The notes beneath the pieces were generated by a model. The model saw only the letters and a list, made by a program, of their open reading frames with translations. It made no database searches and was not told the DNA's origin. Of a stretch of 64,000 bases of DNA, positions 1 through 53,885 are shown piece after piece. How positions within the stretch are numbered: the stretch's first letter is position 1; each line of letters begins with the position of its first letter. The translations under genes and the position numbers were made by a program. The DNA comes from an uncultured Bellilinea sp. (GTDB lineage Bacteria; Chloroflexota; Anaerolineae; Anaerolineales; Anaerolineaceae), in assembly GCA_938040735.1 (NCBI GenBank), contig CALHYE010000001.1:62001-126000 (forward strand), given 5' to 3'.

Positions 1-549
1 CATGTTGATGAACGCGCCCAGCGTTCCAAACGGGCTGAGCGGGAAGGGCAGCGGCAGAAAATAGGGCAGGCTGACGGCTGCGCCGTGCCGTCTGCCGACC
101 AGATAATGCCCAAATTCGTGGGCAGTCAGAATCGCCAGCATGCTGATGGCAAACGGCCAGCCGCCGCTGATGACGGCCCAAATAAATTCGGCCGCATTCG
201 CCGGCATCTGCTCCAGACTCAGCATGCCGCCGGTAAACCACACGCTGATCAGCGTTAGAATGAAGAAGATCAGGTTGGTGCGGGGATTGGATGGACGCGG
301 GGCCTGCCGGCTGGTCACAAAAATCACGGTTTGGCGGTTGTTTTCATATCGAAACAGCGGGGTCAAGCCCAATGGCGCCGCCGCTTCGGCCAGACGGTCA
401 TAGGCTTCGGCCGTATCCGGCAAGATGATCCGCCCGTGGTATTTGATCATGAAGCCTTTGCGTTCATCCCCATAGGTAGTATCTTCGATGAAGAAGACTC
501 GACGCACGGCCAGTTCGATTCGTTCATACAGTAAAGGTTGATCTTCCAT
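1..549 (-). CDS. Site-2 protease family zinc metalloprotease (peptidase M50), 3' end missing
   Basis: The gene reads leftward and runs off the window edge, leaving 183 codons. After about 90 soluble N-terminal residues come hydrophobic segments and the zinc-protease motif HEFGH (His144, Glu145, His148), the catalytic signature of intramembrane M50 proteases. The soluble N-terminus followed by the membrane core resembles EGY1-like site-2 proteases. The family cleaves membrane-embedded substrates, often anti-sigma factors or signal peptide remnants; the substrate here is unknown. The start at 549 is chosen because a purine-rich AGGGA lies just upstream. The C-terminal zinc-ligand motif lies outside the window. 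The gene is followed on the other side by tRNA-Sec on the same strand. Confidence 0.88.
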   Translation of the reverse strand, partial: MEDQPLLYERIELAVRRVFFIEDTTYGDERKGFMIKYHGRIILPDTAEAYDRLAEAAAPLGLTPLFRYENNRQTVIFVTSRQAPRPSNPRTNLIFFILTLISVWFTGGMLSLEQMPANAAEFIWAVISGGWPFAISMLAILTAHEFGHYLVGRRHGAAVSLPYFLPLPFPLSPFGTLGAFINM

Positions 550-2077: not shown

Positions 2078-3742
2078 ATGAAGCGTTCACCTACGACCCT
2101 CATCAGGAAAAGTTCACTTGGATTAAGCGTTTTTCTTCTAACAATCAGTCTCCTAATGACCGCCTGTCAGCCGCTATCCTTGCAGGTTGAACAGGTGCAG
2201 GCCTCGGTTAATTTACAACGGGTGCGGGCTCAGGATTGTTCGTATGGCGGAGCAATTCGGGCGGTTGAAGCAGTGGATGATTACACGGTGCGCTTTACTC
2301 TGTGTAACCCGGATCCGGCTTTTCCAGCCAAACTGGCTTTTCCAATCTTTGCCATTCAGGATGATGAGTACCTGAACGAACATCGGGGCAACTCTAAGGA
2401 GATGAGCCGCCAGCCCAATGGCAGCGGACCCTATCAGGTGGTGGAGTATGTGCCGGGAGTGCGTTTGGTCCTCCAACCCAATCCGAATTATTGGGGGATA
2501 CCACCGCGGATCGAATCGCTCACCTTCCGGTGGGCGACTACCTCGTTATCGCGGCTGGTTGAGGTCAGCACCGAAAAAGCCCACGCAATGGACTCGCCCG
2601 ATCCCAATTCCTATTACAGCATCCATCAGGATCATTCGTTGAATCTGGTCTATCGCCCTGCGCTCAATTTGGCATTTATTGGGATGAACAACCGCTTTAC
2701 GCCCTTCAATGATGCGCGTGTGCGTCAGGCGATCAGCATGCTGATTGACCGGGAGAAAATTATCAGCACGATTTACCCATCCGGTACGGAAGTGGCCGAA
2801 CAATTCCTTTCTCCCGTGTTTCAGGTTGGGTACACCCCACTTTATCGGTGGCATCCGTATGATCCCCAGCAAGCGCTGGATTTGCTGCGGCGGGCCGACT
2901 TTGATTTTGAACAGGAGTTAACCCTTTCATACCCTTCGCAAGGCAATGAACTGTTGCCCGACCCGCACCGGATTGCCCAGACGATTCGCTCGCAGTTATT
3001 GCCATACGGCATCAATGTGCGCCTGAACCGAATGGATACCGCCGAATTTGAACAATCCGTTCAGGCCGGAAATGAGGCTTTCTTCCTGTACTCGTGGGTT
3101 GCCGATTATCCAGACCCCAACAGCCTGTATTCAACCGTCTTTTCGTCCAAATCTCAATTGCTGGGGAATGTCTATCCGGATGTGCAGTTCATGGCGAATG
3201 AAGCCGGGCGCACCAGCGATCCCGACCAGCGCCAAAACCGTTATAACCGAATCAACGAGATGCTGCGGATCCACACGCCGGCAATCCCGCTCGCCCATGT
3301 GCGGACCGCTGTTGTTTTTCGCCGGGAAGTCCAGGGCGCTGCAGTTAACTCGTATCTGGAAAATTTGCCGGAAGTGATCACGCCGGACCGAACGCTGGTG
3401 TTTCTCCAATCGGCTGAGCCGGAATCGCTTTGGCCGGCAGACGCCGCCCAGTGGACGACCTTCCGCGTGACCAACTTGTTGTACTCCACACTGGTCGAAA
3501 ACGATTTTGACAGAGTCGCTTTACGGCCGGGGCTGGCGGAATCGTGGTCGGCCAATCCAAACGCAACCGAATGGACCTTTAACCTGCGCTACGGGGTGCG
3601 TTTTACGAATGGAGCATTGTTGAATGCCAATGATGTGGTTGCATCGTTTGCGGCAATTTGGGACGCTAACAACCCCAATCATACCGGCGACAGCGGCCAG
3701 TTCCAATTCTTCCAGCGCTTTTTTGGCTCATTTCTCAATTAA
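2078..3742 (+). CDS. Circularly permuted peptide/oligopeptide ABC transporter substrate-binding lipoprotein (SBP_bac_5)
   Basis: A 554-residue lipoprotein (signal peptide with LMTAC, Cys30). Its segments are those of DppA/OppA-type binding proteins but in swapped order. Residues about 55-433 begin at the strand normally found in mid-domain (IRAVEAVDDYTVRFTL) and run to the usual C-terminal end. Residues 435-554 then contain what is normally the N-terminal start (TLVFLQSAEPESL, GLAESW, NANDVV) and stop at FFGSFLN, exactly where residue 55 would follow in a normal protein. Together they cover the whole fold once. Start ATG has AAGGGAG upstream. No permease or ATPase genes are adjacent, and a terminator follows. 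It probably binds peptides or similar ligands at the cell surface. Confidence 0.85.
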   Translation: MKRSPTTLIRKSSLGLSVFLLTISLLMTACQPLSLQVEQVQASVNLQRVRAQDCSYGGAIRAVEAVDDYTVRFTLCNPDPAFPAKLAFPIFAIQDDEYLNEHRGNSKEMSRQPNGSGPYQVVEYVPGVRLVLQPNPNYWGIPPRIESLTFRWATTSLSRLVEVSTEKAHAMDSPDPNSYYSIHQDHSLNLVYRPALNLAFIGMNNRFTPFNDARVRQAISMLIDREKIISTIYPSGTEVAEQFLSPVFQVGYTPLYRWHPYDPQQALDLLRRADFDFEQELTLSYPSQGNELLPDPHRIAQTIRSQLLPYGINVRLNRMDTAEFEQSVQAGNEAFFLYSWVADYPDPNSLYSTVFSSKSQLLGNVYPDVQFMANEAGRTSDPDQRQNRYNRINEMLRIHTPAIPLAHVRTAVVFRREVQGAAVNSYLENLPEVITPDRTLVFLQSAEPESLWPADAAQWTTFRVTNLLYSTLVENDFDRVALRPGLAESWSANPNATEWTFNLRYGVRFTNGALLNANDVVASFAAIWDANNPNHTGDSGQFQFFQRFFGSFLN

Positions 3743-3773
3743 CCTTGATTGACGGCTAGACCCGGGAAACCAG

Positions 3774-3803
3774 GGCTGCCTCCAAAAGGGGCAGCCTTTT
3801 TTT
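3774..3803 (+). terminator. Rho-independent terminator after the substrate-binding protein
   Basis: A perfect 7-bp stem GGCTGCC/GGCAGCC with a 9-nt loop is followed directly by seven T. It lies 31 bases after the stop codon and separates this gene from the macroglobulin gene. Confidence 0.88.
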
Positions 3804-3949
3804 GGAACTTTTACGGCTTGGAAGGCGTCTGTTGGCTAAATTCCAAAAGCCCCTCATGAATTGACTCCGATGGATTTTTTTCCACTCGAATTGTGGTAAA
3901 GTAAAGTTGGTTCGCCAGAGGATTGAATGAGATTTACGGAGGCGCCTCC

Positions 3950-6900
3950 ATGAGAAACCATACTCAACCGGGCTTGTTTCGGATGATCATGACCCTGTTT
4001 GGGTTGTTTGGGATGGTTGGTCTATCCTGCAATTTGCCGTTTGGAGGAGGGACAAATCAGCCCCTGCCGACTCAAACGATCGCCCAGCCTACTCGTCTGC
4101 CTGTGCTGCAGGAGGAACCGCCCCCGACTGTTTTAGAGGTTCAACCCGAACCGGGCAGTATACTCAATTCGAGCGAAGGGGTGGTTGTGATTTTTGATCA
4201 GCCAATGGATCGCCTTTCCGTAGAAGGCGCCGTGGAAGTCCAGCCGGTCACCGCCGGCCGTTTTCAGTGGCTGGACGATACTTCGGTGCGTTTTGTGCCG
4301 GATCAACCCCTGCCGTTGAATACTCCGATTACATTGACCTTGCAAACCACCGCAAAAGATCAAAGTGGAAAGAGTCTGACCCGCTCATTTTCTTATACTT
4401 TTCGTACGGCGGGGGAATTGCGAATTACCGAACGACTTCCTCAACCGGATGTTGAAGACATAGACCCCACGACAGCGGTTGCGGTTACCTTTAATCGTCC
4501 GGTGGTTGAGCTGGGCGAGGTTGGTTCCTCCGAACCGGCTGCGTTTTCCTTGCAGCCAGCCGCCGATGGGCAAGGACGCTGGTTGAATACCAGCACGTAT
4601 GTGTTTACCCCTCAGCCAGCTCTTGAAGGCGGCAAGACTTACCAAGTGGTGATCAACGCAGACCTAACGGGCGTTGATGGAGCGCCTTTAGCGAACCCGG
4701 ATTGGATGAACTGGCAGTTTCGTACCGCCAAACCGGCGCTAATCGGCATTGAACCCTCGTTGGATGGCGCTCAGCCGCTGGATGTGGCGATTCGCTTGAC
4801 TTTTAATCAACCCATGAACCGACGCAGTGTTGAACAAGGCTTGCGCTTACGGGGTCAGGATGGCAGCCCGGTTAACCTGATCTACGAGTGGAGCGAGCGG
4901 GATAGGATTGTCACGATTAAGCCGCAGGAATTGCTGGAACGTAATCGGGAATATGTGGTCGAGATGGATGCGGTTGAAGCGCTGGGCGGGGTGAACATCG
5001 AGGAAATTGTGCGCCAATCTTTCCGAACGGTGGGACAATTTCAGGTTATTTCCACCTCCCCGGCAGCCGGGGAAGACCTGGAAGTCTATGGGGATTATGC
5101 CTCGGCGCTGGTAGAATTTTCGGCGCCCCTGGCACCCGCTCAAAATTTGAATGATCGGGTAATCCTTGAACCCAAAGTCAGCAACTTCTACATTTTCAGC
5201 GATGAGCAGGCCGGTTTCCTGTATCTTTCTGGCTTCTTCAAAAGCGGTCAAACCTACCGCTTGACCCTGAAAGCGGAACTCCAAGATCGCTGGGGGCAAA
5301 CGCTCGGCCGGGATTACATCTTCACTTTTAGAGCCGCTAATCAACTACCCACCCTGAATATTCCCATTCAAAACACCTACAGCGCTATTTATTACGCTCT
5401 TCCGGGAGATGCCTTTCTACCGGCTTATGCCGCCAATCTGGAGGTGTTGAATATCCGCCGGGCGCGAATGACCTTGATGGATGTCATTCGCGCGGTCGAA
5501 CGTATTCCCGCTTTTGATTCGTTGCCGCTTGAGGAAAACTGGCAGATGGAATTAAATTTACCGCAGAATGTCAGTCAGGGAATTGAAATTCCGCTAAAAG
5601 CCGATAAAAGCGGTCTGGAAACGGGTTTATATGCGTTTCAGATCGCCTCTCCGCAGTTTACTGAAACCTATCAAACGGTTAATTTGCTGATGGCGGTCAG
5701 TCCGGTTCAACTGACCATCAAAGAAAGCCAGCGAGAGGTCTTGGTTTGGGCGGTTAGCGCCTTGAACCACCGTCCGGTGAGCGGGCGGGAAGTTAGAGTA
5801 TATCAGGCTGGGAGCGGATTGGAGTTGGGTAAGGCCCAAACCGATGAGCAGGGCGTCGCTCGAATCTCCCTGACCGAAAGTCAGCTTTACCGCACGCTGG
5901 TGATCACCCTGGGGAAGGAGGGCGACCCGGATTTTTCGCTGGCAACCACCCAATGGAATGCCGGAATTTCGCCGTGGAACTTTGGGATCAGCAGTAATTT
6001 CGACCAGCCCAAGATCAAAACCTACGGTTACACCGACCGTCCCATCTATCAGCCCGGGCAAACCGTTTACTACCGCTACGTCGTCCGTCAGTGGGATGAC
6101 GCACGCTACCCGCCCGCGGACTTGAAAGAAATTACGGTTAGGGTTTACGGCGGCTACTCCCCCGAACAGGGGACGCCCTTGCTGGAGACCCAAAAATTGA
6201 CTCTGTCGCCGTATGGAACGGCTTACGGGCAGGTGGAATTGTCGCCGGATGCGCCGACCGGGATTTATTCCATTCAGATTGACAATCAACCTGATTCGGT
6301 GATTGAGTTTCAGGTGGCGGCCTATCGCAAGCCGGAGATTGATTTGCAGGTGACTTTCTCCAAATCCGATTACCGGCTGGGGGAGGATATGCGGGCGGAG
6401 GTTGGAGCAAATTATTTCTTTGGGGCGCCGGCTGCCGGTGTCAACGTCAGCTGGTCTTTGTATGCCCGTAACGCCGAAACCGACTTGCCGGGCGGGTATG
6501 TTTCGGGACGGCTGGATACCTTCTGGCTTGAGCCGGACTGGTGGATGCGAATGGATTTACCCCTGGGGGATTATGTAATGGGCGGCAGCGGGGTTACCGG
6601 TGCGGACGGGCGCTTCCCGTTGACCTTTCTCGGCCAAAGTCTCAGCGCTCTCCTTGAAGAAAACCGCCAGAAAATTCTGACTCTCGAAGTCACCATGACG
6701 GATGAAAGCGGTTTTCCTGTGTCACAACGGGCGCAAACGGTTCTTCATCCTTCAAATTTCATCATCGGTATTCGGCCGGAAAGCTGGGTGCAATCGGCCG
6801 GCAGCCCGTTTGTCTTTTCCATCCTGACGGTGGATTGGCAGAAACAACCGCTTGGAGCCCGCCCGCTGAGCGCAACCTTTGATCGAATCGAGTGGGTGCA

Positions 6901-9871
6901 GGAATGGAGTGAGGTTGAAACCGGGGCCGTATCCTACCGCGAGGTGGTTACTCCGGTCAGCGGGGCCGACCTGCGCACCGGAAATAACGGTTTGGCAACC
7001 CTGGAATTTACACCCCCAGAAGCGGGTGTGTACCGTTTGGAAGTGCGGGGTGAAGGGGCGCTCTCCCAGGTTTTGGTTTGGGTAGGGGGGGCGGGGGCTG
7101 TTCCCTGGCCGCCTTTGCCAAATCAGCAGATTCGGCTGGAAGCCGACCAGAAGGGATATGTTGCGGGTGATACCGCCCAAATCTTCATTCCTAACCCGTT
7201 GAAGGGTAACACGCTGGCATGGCTCAGCGTTGAACGGCGCGGGGTAATCACCTATCAGGTGCTTTCCATTGGCGAGGGTGGCGAAACGGTGAGTCTGCCC
7301 CTTGCAGAAACCTTTGCTCCGAATGTTTTTGTTTCGGTTACACTCTTGGGGGTTGATGAAACCGGTAAGCCGGATTTCCGGCAGGGTTATCTTGAATTGA
7401 GAGTGAAACCCGAGGCGTTTCAACTGGATGTGCGGCTGGTTTCTCCACAAGATCGTTTTGAACCGCGCCAGACCGTCCGGCTCGATTTGCTGGTCAAGGA
7501 TTGGCGCGGCAATCCGCTTCAAGGCGAGTTCTCGGTAGCGGTGGTGGATAAGGCAATTTTTGCTTTGAGCAAGCCAAATGCCCCCGATATTTTCAGCGCT
7601 TTTTACGGCGATCAGCCGTTGGGGGTGTTCACCAGTTGTTCGCTGGCGGCTTATATTGAGCGGATACCGCTGCTGCCGCGGGGTTTGGGCGGCGGCGGAG
7701 GGGGAGATGCGGCCCAAGTCACCTTGCGCAGCGACTTTCGGGATACAGCCTACTGGTTAGGGGCGCTGGAGACCGATTCGAGCGGTTTTGCGCAAATCGA
7801 ATTTCCCTTGCCGGACAATTTGACAACCTGGGTGGTACTGGTGCGCGGGCTGACGCGCGATGCTCGGGTGGGTGAAGCATCCAGCGAAATTGTGGTCAGC
7901 AAGGATTTGCTGATTCGGCCGGTAGTTCCGCGCTTTGCAGTGGCGGGCGACCGGGTCGAAATTGGAGCCGTTGTTCAAAACAATACGGACGTCCCTCTGG
8001 ATGTCACCGTTCGTCTGCAAAGCAGCGGTTTGGCGCTGGAAAATCCGGCTTTGGAGCGTCAAGCGCTTCAACTGGCTGCCAGAGAACGTCAGCGGGTGAA
8101 CTGGTGGGTCAAGGCGGAGGATGTCGCCGCGGCTTCGTTGATTTTCAGTGTGGAAGGCGGCGGTCTGAAGGATGCGGTCAGCCTTTCCGGTGAGGATTTG
8201 CCCATCCGCCGGTACAGCGCCCCGCAATCGTTTGTAACCGGTGGAATTCTTGATCGTGGGGGCGAGGTGTTAGAAGTGATTAGTCTGCCGCGATCGTTTA
8301 CTCCAACCGGGGGCGGCTTGCAGGTTGAACTTTCTCCCAATTTGGCGGCAAGCGTATTTTCCGGTTTGCCGGTTTTGGAAGATTACCCGGACGAATTTGT
8401 CGAGGTTCTCCTCTCGCGTCTTTTAGCCAATTTGAATGGGTATCTGCTGAGCCGGCAGATCAATTTTTCCGCACCTGACCTGAACGATCGCTTGCAGCAA
8501 TTCATCCGGCGAGACCTGAACCGTCTGCTCGAAAAGAAGCAAGCCGACGGCGGCTGGGGCTGGATTGCCGGTGAGCCCAGTGACTTTTTCCTGAGCGCTT
8601 ATGGTTTGTGGGTGCTCGATCAGGCCAATGCGGCCGGTTTTGTCGTTGAACCTTTCCATGTTTTGGATGCCAACCGTTTTGTGATGGGCGGTCTTTACAC
8701 GCCGGAAATGGTGCAGGAAACCACAAAACTGGATCAACTGGCCTTTGCGTACTTTGTGCTGAATCAGCATGGCCGCCAAAATCCAGTCCCGCCGGAATTA
8801 TTCCGCTTGCGCGGGCGGTTGAATCCATGGGGACAGGCATTTCTGGCAATGGCACTCAACAGCAGCGGCGATACCCAATCGGCTGAAACCATTTTGGCCG
8901 ATTTGCAGGGCAGCGCCATCCGCTCGGCAAGCGGGGCTTTCTGGCAGGAAGAGGATGATTCTCTGTTCCGTTTTTCGAATACGTATGCTTCGACGGCGAT
9001 CGTTTTGATGGCGCTGCTTGAACTTGATCCGGCTTCATCGCTGGTTGCTGATGGGGTGCGTTATCTAACCCTCCAGCGCGGGGCGCAAGGATGGCTGAAT
9101 AGTTATGGCAGCGGATGGGCGCTGGCAGCCCTCAGCCGGGCTGTGCGGGCAACCGGCGAGTTGCAGGGTAATTACTCCTTCGCTGCCACTTTGAACGGGG
9201 CTGCCATTGCCAGCGGAGAAGCGGGCGGAGCGCAATCTTTCAACCCGGTTCGGGCAGATGTGAACATCGCTCAATTCCCCTCCAGCCGCAATGCCCTGCG
9301 GATTCAGCGCACGGATGGCAGCGGGCGCTTATATTACCGGGCGATCCTGGAAGTCGGCCAGCCTGTGGAAACCGTGCCAGCCATGGACGGCGGAATTGTA
9401 ATCAGCCGGGAATATTATCTGGAAGGGGCTGTTTGCGGGGTAGACATCTGTCCGCCGGTTGCCAAAGTCAACCGTGCGATGAGCAATCCGGTCGTGCAGG
9501 CGCGCCTATCTATCACCGTAGCGCAGGATCTCACCTATCTGGTGGTGGAAGATTACCTACCAGCCGGAGCGGAAATTGTGAATACGACCCTGCAAACCAC
9601 CCGGCAGGCCGCTGAAAGCGAACAGATTGGCGTGGTGGAGCAAAATCGTCTCGACCGCGGTTGGGGATGGTGGTACTTTGGCGAACCGCGAATTTTTAGC
9701 GATCATATCCGCTGGGTTGGGGCGTATGTCCCGGCCGGGACATACATACTGACTTACCGATTAATGCCTTTGCAGGCCGGCGAATTCCGCGTGCTGCCGA
9801 CGCGTGCCTATGCCTATTACTTCCCGGATATTCAAGGAAGGACGGGCGGGATGGTATTCAAGATCGAATAA
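3950..9871 (+). CDS. Alpha-2-macroglobulin family lipoprotein lacking the thioester
   Basis: A 1973-residue lipoprotein (lipobox GLSC) built from repeated Ig-like domains (several domains with D/N-QPM and FRTA repeats in the first 500 residues), macroglobulin domains, and an alpha-alpha toroid-like region near residues 1450-1750 with GGWGW. The ATG at 3950 is preferred over one at 3923 because GGAGG lies 8-12 bases upstream. In the family, a CxEQ thioester traps proteases covalently. Here the equivalent place reads DYPDEFVEVLLSR, so Cys is Phe1483 and Gln is Val1486. It may act as a non-covalent protease trap or surface scaffold. No penicillin-binding protein PbpC neighbours it, unlike enterobacterial yfaS. 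Confidence 0.9.
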   Translation: MRNHTQPGLFRMIMTLFGLFGMVGLSCNLPFGGGTNQPLPTQTIAQPTRLPVLQEEPPPTVLEVQPEPGSILNSSEGVVVIFDQPMDRLSVEGAVEVQPVTAGRFQWLDDTSVRFVPDQPLPLNTPITLTLQTTAKDQSGKSLTRSFSYTFRTAGELRITERLPQPDVEDIDPTTAVAVTFNRPVVELGEVGSSEPAAFSLQPAADGQGRWLNTSTYVFTPQPALEGGKTYQVVINADLTGVDGAPLANPDWMNWQFRTAKPALIGIEPSLDGAQPLDVAIRLTFNQPMNRRSVEQGLRLRGQDGSPVNLIYEWSERDRIVTIKPQELLERNREYVVEMDAVEALGGVNIEEIVRQSFRTVGQFQVISTSPAAGEDLEVYGDYASALVEFSAPLAPAQNLNDRVILEPKVSNFYIFSDEQAGFLYLSGFFKSGQTYRLTLKAELQDRWGQTLGRDYIFTFRAANQLPTLNIPIQNTYSAIYYALPGDAFLPAYAANLEVLNIRRARMTLMDVIRAVERIPAFDSLPLEENWQMELNLPQNVSQGIEIPLKADKSGLETGLYAFQIASPQFTETYQTVNLLMAVSPVQLTIKESQREVLVWAVSALNHRPVSGREVRVYQAGSGLELGKAQTDEQGVARISLTESQLYRTLVITLGKEGDPDFSLATTQWNAGISPWNFGISSNFDQPKIKTYGYTDRPIYQPGQTVYYRYVVRQWDDARYPPADLKEITVRVYGGYSPEQGTPLLETQKLTLSPYGTAYGQVELSPDAPTGIYSIQIDNQPDSVIEFQVAAYRKPEIDLQVTFSKSDYRLGEDMRAEVGANYFFGAPAAGVNVSWSLYARNAETDLPGGYVSGRLDTFWLEPDWWMRMDLPLGDYVMGGSGVTGADGRFPLTFLGQSLSALLEENRQKILTLEVTMTDESGFPVSQRAQTVLHPSNFIIGIRPESWVQSAGSPFVFSILTVDWQKQPLGARPLSATFDRIEWVQEWSEVETGAVSYREVVTPVSGADLRTGNNGLATLEFTPPEAGVYRLEVRGEGALSQVLVWVGGAGAVPWPPLPNQQIRLEADQKGYVAGDTAQIFIPNPLKGNTLAWLSVERRGVITYQVLSIGEGGETVSLPLAETFAPNVFVSVTLLGVDETGKPDFRQGYLELRVKPEAFQLDVRLVSPQDRFEPRQTVRLDLLVKDWRGNPLQGEFSVAVVDKAIFALSKPNAPDIFSAFYGDQPLGVFTSCSLAAYIERIPLLPRGLGGGGGGDAAQVTLRSDFRDTAYWLGALETDSSGFAQIEFPLPDNLTTWVVLVRGLTRDARVGEASSEIVVSKDLLIRPVVPRFAVAGDRVEIGAVVQNNTDVPLDVTVRLQSSGLALENPALERQALQLAARERQRVNWWVKAEDVAAASLIFSVEGGGLKDAVSLSGEDLPIRRYSAPQSFVTGGILDRGGEVLEVISLPRSFTPTGGGLQVELSPNLAASVFSGLPVLEDYPDEFVEVLLSRLLANLNGYLLSRQINFSAPDLNDRLQQFIRRDLNRLLEKKQADGGWGWIAGEPSDFFLSAYGLWVLDQANAAGFVVEPFHVLDANRFVMGGLYTPEMVQETTKLDQLAFAYFVLNQHGRQNPVPPELFRLRGRLNPWGQAFLAMALNSSGDTQSAETILADLQGSAIRSASGAFWQEEDDSLFRFSNTYASTAIVLMALLELDPASSLVADGVRYLTLQRGAQGWLNSYGSGWALAALSRAVRATGELQGNYSFAATLNGAAIASGEAGGAQSFNPVRADVNIAQFPSSRNALRIQRTDGSGRLYYRAILEVGQPVETVPAMDGGIVISREYYLEGAVCGVDICPPVAKVNRAMSNPVVQARLSITVAQDLTYLVVEDYLPAGAEIVNTTLQTTRQAAESEQIGVVEQNRLDRGWGWWYFGEPRIFSDHIRWVGAYVPAGTYILTYRLMPLQAGEFRVLPTRAYAYYFPDIQGRTGGMVFKIE

Positions 9872-52214: not shown

Positions 52215-53885
52215 ATGGATCGTGAAAAGTTTATTAAGATGATGGCAGAAGCCAGGTTGTATGACCTGACTCAGGGATGCAGCATCTTCACGCCGCCCTT
52301 TCCCGGCGATAAAGCCCTGGAAGTACACTTCTTCAAGCGGGTAACCGGCGCTTACGGCGGCGGCGCCGGCGCTAACGGCCAGATTTTGAACTGGTCGAAT
52401 ACGGTGGGTACCCATCTGGTCGGTGAAACGGCGTTTCACTCCGGCGGGCGGGCAATCTCCGATATTCCCTTGAGCGACCTGTGCGGTCAGGGGGTGGTGG
52501 TAGATATTTCCGACATGGTTTCGGATTACAGCCTCTACACCCCGGAAATGATCATGAAGAAAGCCGATGTGCGAAAAGGCGATATCCTGATCATCAACAC
52601 CGGTTACCACCGCTATTCCTGGGATCAGCCGGATGTGTACAACCCCAATGCGCAAGGCGGCGTGGAATCGAAGGAATTTGGCTTTCTGGTGCGTCATCCC
52701 GGCCCTTCGCCGGAGTTCTTCCAGTGGGCGCTGGACATGCAGTTGAAATGGATCGGAGTGGATTGCGGTTGCGCCGAACACCCGATGAACACTCCGATTC
52801 GCCGGTTGCATGAAAACGAGTTTAAGAAAGCCGAAGCCAAGTTAATCAAAGAATACGGCAAGACCTGGGATGAGATGTTCCCGCAGGACTGGTACTATGA
52901 GATGACTCATGTCACCCTGCCCAAGAATCATCTCCTCTTCGTCGAGTCAATCGTCGGTGAGATTGACAAACTCAAAAATCAACGGGCTTGGATTGCGGTG
53001 ATGCCGATTCCCTTCATGGAAGTGGAAACGGCTTGGGCGCGGGTGGTGGCGTATCAGCCGCCGGAGTGGATGGATGAGAAAGAATTCTACGAAGCGATGG
53101 ACCGCGCTCAGATGATTGACCTGACCGTGCCGTTCTCGGTGCGTTCGCCGCAGTGGGCAAACTATGAGCCATTGACGGTCAAGTACTTTAAGCGGGTGGG
53201 CGGCGCTCATTACGGCATGGCGCGCAACGGTTCGATCTGCAACGCCTCGATCCATTTGGCCACCCACATGGACGGTGAAAAACACTTCTATCCGAACGGA
53301 CGCACAATTGGCGAGGTGCCGCTGGAAGAGTGGGTTGGTCCCGGCGTCATTGCCGATATTTCCGGCATGGTCAGCAATTCCAGCGTGTATTCCCCCGAAA
53401 TGATTGAAAAGGTCGTAGAAGTGCGCGAAGGCGATATTCTGATCATCAAGACTGGCTGGTACAAATACGGCTGGATCAGCCCGGATTCGGACGAATTTCG
53501 CTACATGATCAAGCACCCGGGGCCGTCCGCCGATTTTGCCCAGTGGGCAGCCGATAAAAAGATTAAGTGGATTGGCGTGGACTGCGTGGCTGCTGATCAC
53601 CCGATGAATACCATCCAGCGTATCTGGCATCCCAAGACCTTTGAAGAAGCCAACGAAAAACTCAAACGAGATTTTGGAAAGTCCTGGGATGAAATGTTCC
53701 CGCTGGATCAGTATTATCAGGATATGCACCTCAATCTCTTCCCGAAGAAGATCGTGCATGCCGAAAATCTGGGTTACCAGATTGCGGATGCCCCCAGCGG
53801 ACGCTACTACATCGGTTGTTTTGTCCAAAAAGCCATGGAAGCCGAATCGATGTGGGGCCGCTTTGTAGCCTTCAAGGAAGGATAA
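52215..53885 (+). CDS. Fused double cyclase/kynurenine formamidase-like hydrolase
   Basis: A 556-residue protein made of two homologous cyclase-family domains (about 1-275 and 285-556). The second has the metal motif H-x3-H-x-D-x3-H (His347, His351, Asp353, His357), as in kynurenine formamidase and isatin hydrolase. In the first, the same positions read Thr63, His67, Val69, Ala73, so three of four ligands are lost. Both domains keep HPMNT and KWIGVDC. Family members hydrolyse cyclic or aryl amides using Mn or Zn. Within this locus it probably opens a ring or cleaves a formamide. Confidence 0.9.
   Translation: MDREKFIKMMAEARLYDLTQGCSIFTPPFPGDKALEVHFFKRVTGAYGGGAGANGQILNWSNTVGTHLVGETAFHSGGRAISDIPLSDLCGQGVVVDISDMVSDYSLYTPEMIMKKADVRKGDILIINTGYHRYSWDQPDVYNPNAQGGVESKEFGFLVRHPGPSPEFFQWALDMQLKWIGVDCGCAEHPMNTPIRRLHENEFKKAEAKLIKEYGKTWDEMFPQDWYYEMTHVTLPKNHLLFVESIVGEIDKLKNQRAWIAVMPIPFMEVETAWARVVAYQPPEWMDEKEFYEAMDRAQMIDLTVPFSVRSPQWANYEPLTVKYFKRVGGAHYGMARNGSICNASIHLATHMDGEKHFYPNGRTIGEVPLEEWVGPGVIADISGMVSNSSVYSPEMIEKVVEVREGDILIIKTGWYKYGWISPDSDEFRYMIKHPGPSADFAQWAADKKIKWIGVDCVAADHPMNTIQRIWHPKTFEEANEKLKRDFGKSWDEMFPLDQYYQDMHLNLFPKKIVHAENLGYQIADAPSGRYYIGCFVQKAMEAESMWGRFVAFKEG

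Follow-up and report, generated by a model that had tools for sequence, protein, structure and literature searches.

An open reading frame on the forward strand of the analysed stretch of DNA (64,000 nucleotides; the window) starts with ATG, spans positions 2078–3742 and encodes a 554-residue DppA/SBP_bac_5 protein (the window protein) whose segments occur in swapped order. The window protein is very likely (probability of about 0.9) a naturally circularly permuted solute-binding lipoprotein of cluster C (SBP_bac_5, DppA-like). In domain I, the old N- and C-termini of DppA lie next to each other, and the permuted chain connects them directly. The new termini are located in a domain I loop at approximately DppA residue 120, and the new N-terminus carries a lipoprotein signal and a tether. 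The two-lobed fold is predicted by modelling to be kept despite the permutation.

Segment order of the window protein

In a phmmer search of PDB sequences, the window protein aligned with E. coli DppA in two stretches of reversed order. Window protein residues 60–424 match DppA residues 152–522 (E value of 3.5e-42), and residues 437–546 match DppA residues 28–144 (E value of 2.4e-10). E values of 1e-42 and 1e-10 rule out a chance match as the explanation of the swapped order. In the structure-based match, residues 57–436 correspond to mature DppA residues 121–507 and residues 438–554 to mature DppA residues 1–125, and the two segments together cover DppA once without a gap. The cut point lies at approximately residues 120–125 of mature DppA. 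After in silico rotation, the window protein is 28% identical to E. coli DppA over 492 aligned positions, and its permuted part is 34% identical to the canonical counterpart.

The Pfam family PF00496 matches the window protein in two stretches with 256.5 bits (cut-off of 32.4), which satisfies membership in SBP_bac_5, and NCBIfam likewise matches in two stretches. In the scan of the genome to which the window belongs, PF00496 profile positions 56–364 precede positions 2–57, and the canonical segment order is not met. The window protein scores 188 bits against the DppA equivalog NF043070, below the curated cut-off of 1005. The coordinates of the gene features are listed in Table 1. The region that tethers the lipidated cysteine to the core is replaced by a longer P/T/E/A-rich linker in most aligned relatives.

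Table 1. Features of the window gene and its 3' flank (window coordinates)
Feature	Position	Strand	Basis
Lipoprotein signal peptide, residues 1–29, lipobox LMTAC	2078..2164	+	sequence
Lipidated Cys30 and short tether to the core, residues 30–56	2165..2245	+	sequence; low pLDDT at 30–41; alignment
Cys54, candidate disulphide partner at the new N-terminus	2237..2239	+	alignment
First-in-order segment, residues 57–436 (rest of domain I, domain II, C-terminal strand)	2246..3385	+	phmmer, fold search
Cys76, invariant in type A	2303..2305	+	alignment
Asn290 at the DppA Arg383 position	2945..2947	+	alignment
Asp343 at the DppA Asp436 position	3104..3106	+	alignment
Junction of old C-terminus and old N-terminus, essentially no added linker	3350..3391	+	alignment to in silico rotated DppA
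Second-in-order segment, residues 438–554 (DppA mature 1–125)	3389..3739	+	phmmer; Z of 7.3 to 1dpp_A 1..125
Stop codon	3740..3742	+	sequence
Terminator-like hairpin, then T run	3772..3798	+	sequence; not above chance for the whole region

An earlier note, made from the sequence alone, had claimed that the segments of a DppA-type protein occur once each in swapped order, that the C-terminal end is the point at which the N-terminal segment resumes, and that a lipoprotein signal is located at the new N-terminus. All three claims held, given the two significant reversed stretches, the gap-free tiling of DppA and the export signal read from the sequence (lipobox LMTAC, Cys30). Its placement of the resumption point at residue 55 held with a nuance: the homologous core begins at residue 55, and the tether and a new cysteine make up residues 30–54.

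Predicted fold

The AlphaFold2 model of the window protein, generated with 58 relatives, has a pLDDT of 89.9 and a pTM of 0.85. In the fold search, residues 57–436 matched 1dpp_A with a Z score of 31.2 (379 residues aligned, 3.9 Å) and DppA of the transporter complex 8z1z at 2.2 Å. When the full model was used as the query, order-dependent fold searches covered no more than residues 48–437, and the C-terminal part was therefore folded and searched separately. Residues 432–554 folded alone matched DppA residues 1–125 with a Z score of 7.3 (115 residues), and all 50 listed rows of this search were N-terminal parts of cluster C proteins. The two-lobed cluster C fold is thus met in the model by both segments (Z of 31 for residues 57–436 and 7.3 for residues 438–554). 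A check set beforehand, namely whether the C-terminal segment folds like DppA residues 1–125, did not refute the permutation.

The pLDDT of the C-terminal segment is ∼78 alone versus ∼92 within the whole protein; that is, the piece is predicted to be better defined when the rest of the protein is present. The packing of this segment in domain I was judged from pTM and pLDDT and not from atomic coordinates. A pTM of 0.85 is hard to reach with a fifth of the chain unplaced, from which we infer that the segment is placed.

Distribution and authenticity of the permuted order

An assembly or binning rearrangement that scrambled a normal gene in this contig could produce the same order, and the draft assembly of the window genome is fragmented (29 contigs, 77% complete). 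However, the same permuted order is observed in a 90% identical gene of Bellilinea caldifistulae (G104), in an 86% identical gene of another MAG, in the closed chromosomes G208 and G005 and in the complete genome AP024710.1. Of the three SBP_bac_5 proteins in the window genome itself, two are permuted and one has the normal order. In the second permuted copy (G000:C7, L002), which is 32% identical to the window copy and is encoded directly upstream of a DppB-type permease gene, profile positions 61–365 come before positions 1–52. Long colinear alignments extend across the whole family. A rearrangement is therefore all but excluded.

Proteins with this order are referred to as type A. A phylum-wide search (E≤1e-60) detected type A matches in 38 of 301 Chloroflexota genomes, and the re-aligned permuted loci are colinear over about residues 45–554, except for L012 (apparent frameshift or edge). 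In GTDB species genomes, at least 516 candidate stretches were confirmed by a scan; the best 80 were aligned as named relatives, and all 80 are colinear in the permuted order. They include proteins from Leptolinea tardivitalis, Leptolinea sp. HRD-7 (complete genome), Ilumatobacter nonamiensis and two Allorhizobium species, and 71 belong to Chloroflexota. Only 1 of 289 Alphaproteobacteria genomes and 4 of 296 Actinomycetota genomes (the Ilumatobacter phylum) contain type A, and this rarity outside Chloroflexota suggests horizontal transfer; a plasmid search for the Allorhizobium member gave no match. In a tree of in silico rotated and normal sequences, type A forms one clade (support of 100).

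Several lines of evidence thus support the circular permutation proposed in the earlier note: the sequence, the predicted fold, the colinearity of more than 80 relatives, the closed genomes and the clade test. The local assembly rearrangement that the note had named as a refutation is excluded because isolates and closed chromosomes show the same order. The large family, the orphan nature of the window copy with its changed ligand pocket and the further permutations described below go beyond that note.

Two side observations concern gene and domain arrangement. In three genomes (G909:C220, G890:C8 and G897:C453), type A-like permuted and normal-order SBP_bac_5 matches are located ∼4–5 kb apart on one contig. 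In seven relatives (L049, L054, L056, L061, L077, L080 and L110), a complete SBP_bac_3 domain, of the amino-acid-binding type, is fused to the new N-terminus of the permuted peptide-binding domain, and in an eighth (L060), Peripla_BP_6 is fused ahead of the permuted SBP_bac_5; these fusions represent two receptors in one lipoprotein.

Operons, ligand anchors, cysteines and tethering of type A proteins

A DppB-type permease gene is the next gene in 71 of the 80 type A loci, and three loci are too short to judge. DppC follows DppB in most loci, and DppD/DppF are found in many. The operon of Allorhizobium taibaishanense contains an M24 prolidase-type peptidase gene further on, which fits peptide uptake. 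In DppA, Asp436 and Arg383, which are named as mutated residues in the 8z1z PDB title, are the ligand anchors. Asp436 binds the ligand amine, and Arg383 binds the ligand carboxylate. The Asp436 equivalent is kept in 59 of 59 permuted rows and the Arg383 equivalent in 57 of 59. Held at the membrane by the domain I loop, type A receptors would bind ligand through the usual closure of both lobes, and most would hand it to the DppB/DppC permease encoded next door; both steps are inferred.

Two cysteines distinguish type A from normal-order proteins. Cys76 is present in 26 of 26 type A rows versus 0 of 66 normal-order rows, and Cys54 in 22 of 26 versus 2 of 66 (within three columns). Cys54 and Cys76 flank the first hairpin after the new N-terminus, which makes a staple plausible. 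The pair is specific to type A and probably pins the new N-terminus, with the disulphide itself being inferred. A second cysteine pair (453/465) is found in 24 of 26 type A rows.

The permutation might have evolved as an adaptation that serves tethering to the membrane, an explanation put forward for TpMglB-2 of Treponema pallidum. In favour of this idea, a simple pattern detects a lipobox in at least 55 of the 80 type A proteins, usually with a long linker, and the other permuted types (B, C and D, see below) also begin with a lipobox and linker. However, about a dozen type A members, periplasmic Allorhizobium proteins among them, carry ordinary secretion signals without a cysteine, and the normal-order binding proteins of the same genomes are also lipoproteins. 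Membrane tethering is thus common but not universal in type A, and its role as the driver of permutation is unlikely.

The window copy as an inferred orphan receptor

No permease or ATPase genes adjoin the window copy at its locus. Downstream, the terminator-like hairpin is followed by an alpha-2-macroglobulin-like gene and no permease. The hairpin may point to a single-gene transcript, a tentative reading as it is not above chance for the region. The downstream gene (3923–9871) would encode a very large lipoprotein and was assigned from sequence appearance only. Elsewhere in the window, the halves of a 556-residue open reading frame (52215–53885) resemble, by eye only, a repeat of one cyclase-like domain with two motifs of the THMDGE/THLVGE type.

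In the window copy, the aspartate anchor of DppA is kept (Asp343) and the arginine is replaced by Asn290, and the requirement for both is not met. The 453/465 cysteine pair is also absent, as in the relative L033. The ratio dN/dS is 0.06–0.07 against two relatives (three genomes), which indicates strong purifying selection and rejects a pseudogene. If the window copy were a paralogue of a permuted transporter receptor that had degenerated or lost its function, the orphan gene, the lost carboxylate-binding arginine and the lost cysteine pair would be accounted for. This alternative is nevertheless very unlikely given the dN/dS values, the intact lipobox and the confident predicted fold. We infer instead an orphan receptor whose specificity has changed; ligand binding and transport by the window copy are unproven. 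Since no permease adjoins it, the aspartate is kept and the arginine is changed to asparagine, the protein probably uses a shared permease (e.g. that of the second permuted copy of its genome) or serves as a sensor. Its ligand may have a free amino group and no free carboxylate in the DppA position, an inference without binding data.

Relation to known binding proteins

The window protein resembles E. coli DppA (1dpp, 8z1y; cluster C) in whole-length homology, predicted fold and the amine-binding aspartate, and its type A relatives also share the carboxylate-binding arginine and the DppBC(DF) operon. It differs from DppA in that it is rotated by about 120 residues, is a lipoprotein, has a cysteine pair at the new N-terminus and lacks both the arginine and an adjoining permease. 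In Anaerolineales, unpermuted DppA-like proteins (e.g. L225 of G168) share the family and operon context but retain the canonical order.

A precedent for permutation is known among ABC binding proteins. TpMglB-2 (Tp0684), a cluster B lipoprotein, binds glucose and is functional in a circularly permuted form; its topology was described in 2016 as hitherto unknown for its class (PMC4990184). TpMglB-2 and the window protein share a natural permutation in domain I of an ABC binding lipoprotein and membership in a permuted family of multiple taxa. However, TpMglB-2 adopts the cluster B (type I) sugar-binding fold, whereas all sequence and fold matches shown for the window protein are cluster C, and the permuted part of TpMglB-2 is only 13% identical to its canonical counterpart (PMC4990184) versus 34% for the window protein. 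No natural permuted cluster C protein was found in the literature searched, which left most subscription journals out of scope, and the PDB chains examined contain no solved permuted cluster C structure. The degree of recurrence is unusual.

Further permutations in the superfamily

Four cut points were located in the 561-position profile, at ∼165/172 (type A), ∼322 (type B), ∼399 (type C) and ∼256 (type D). Type B occurs in 28 of 301 Chloroflexota genomes (loci including L152:2-1819 (G104:C7) and L161–L189), the closed chromosomes G118, G134, G166 and G005 among them. A lipobox, a V/E/T-rich linker and '(T)PHPILSDVRVRQA...' come first in type B, and the old N-terminal part comes last, ending in '..WEHIDMNLFxK'. 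The type B gene of B. caldifistulae is located upstream of DppB/DppC permease genes.

Type C is a single case (L237:1471-3231:-, G917:C12) with a normal-order sister (L225:1249-2982:-, G168:C5). The two parts of L237 are 74.6% and 61.9% identical to L225 (74% over 343 residues). Both genes precede an orthologous permease, so the rotation took place in situ, and type C is an apparently recent, in-place circular permutation.

Type D, found in 24 of 301 Chloroflexota genomes, consists of lipoproteins of ∼860 residues (L208:873-3455:+ (G104:C2), L270, L271 and L277–L298) in which domain II comes first, the N-terminal part later and an Ig-like extension at the C-terminus. The N-terminal part is weak by sequence (12–20 bits in most rows; 43–45 columns by profile comparison), and type D is therefore called a probable permutation.

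In the tree of rotated and normal sequences, types B and D, like type A, each form one clade (support of 100), and type C is sister to the normal-order L225 (support of 100). The tree came from a quick search and contains some long branches, and the exact position of type D is unreliable. Permutation has thus occurred independently at least three and probably four times in the superfamily, three of these on strong sequence evidence.

A chimera, in which the C-terminal 120 residues of the window protein were appended to a truncated binding protein from a different one, remains conceivable because the ancestor of the ancient type A is not preserved, and the same possibility was raised for TpMglB-2 by its study (PMC4990184). 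However, the two halves have their closest normal-order matches in common (E. coli DppA and L225), which argues for one rotated protein. Moreover, the pieces tile DppA without overlap or gap, and both halves of type C derive from the same in-place sister. A chimera is thus very unlikely, and a circular permutation is preferred.

All types keep a standard signal peptide and a low-complexity linker at the 5' end with no detectable loss of the mature protein. This pattern would be explained if, in each permuted type, the mature part was first duplicated in tandem and then trimmed from both ends, the linker acting as a putative modular adaptor. A bolder reading, which we consider likely as a whole, treats the Chloroflexota cluster C binding proteins as a hot spot where circular permutation recurs naturally. 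On this reading, at least three and probably four independent events, in different loops of both lobes, each yielded a functional, maintained receptor, and the modular 5' end, made up of signal peptide and low-complexity linker, would allow the mature N-terminus to be set at any internal point.

Natural circular permutants are nearly undocumented among ABC binding proteins, with one structural case, from another cluster, in the literature searched. With several independent permutations in one superfamily, one of which has a closely related unpermuted sister, the origin of permutation becomes directly testable, as does its effect on lobe closure, permease docking and tethering. Permuted receptors also offer nature-tested cut sites for binding-protein biosensors, and order-dependent annotation and fold-search tools recover only part of such proteins.

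Shortened proteins of the superfamily were also observed. Two closed genomes encode stand-alone 'half' SBP_bac_5 lipoproteins (L306:2533-3372:+ in G005 and L307:3739-4578:- in G112) that contain roughly the first half of the profile only and end just after '..NPNYWG..'. A shortened type B-like protein (L308:3431-4675:- in G166) contains the domain II part only, followed by an unrelated C-terminal region.
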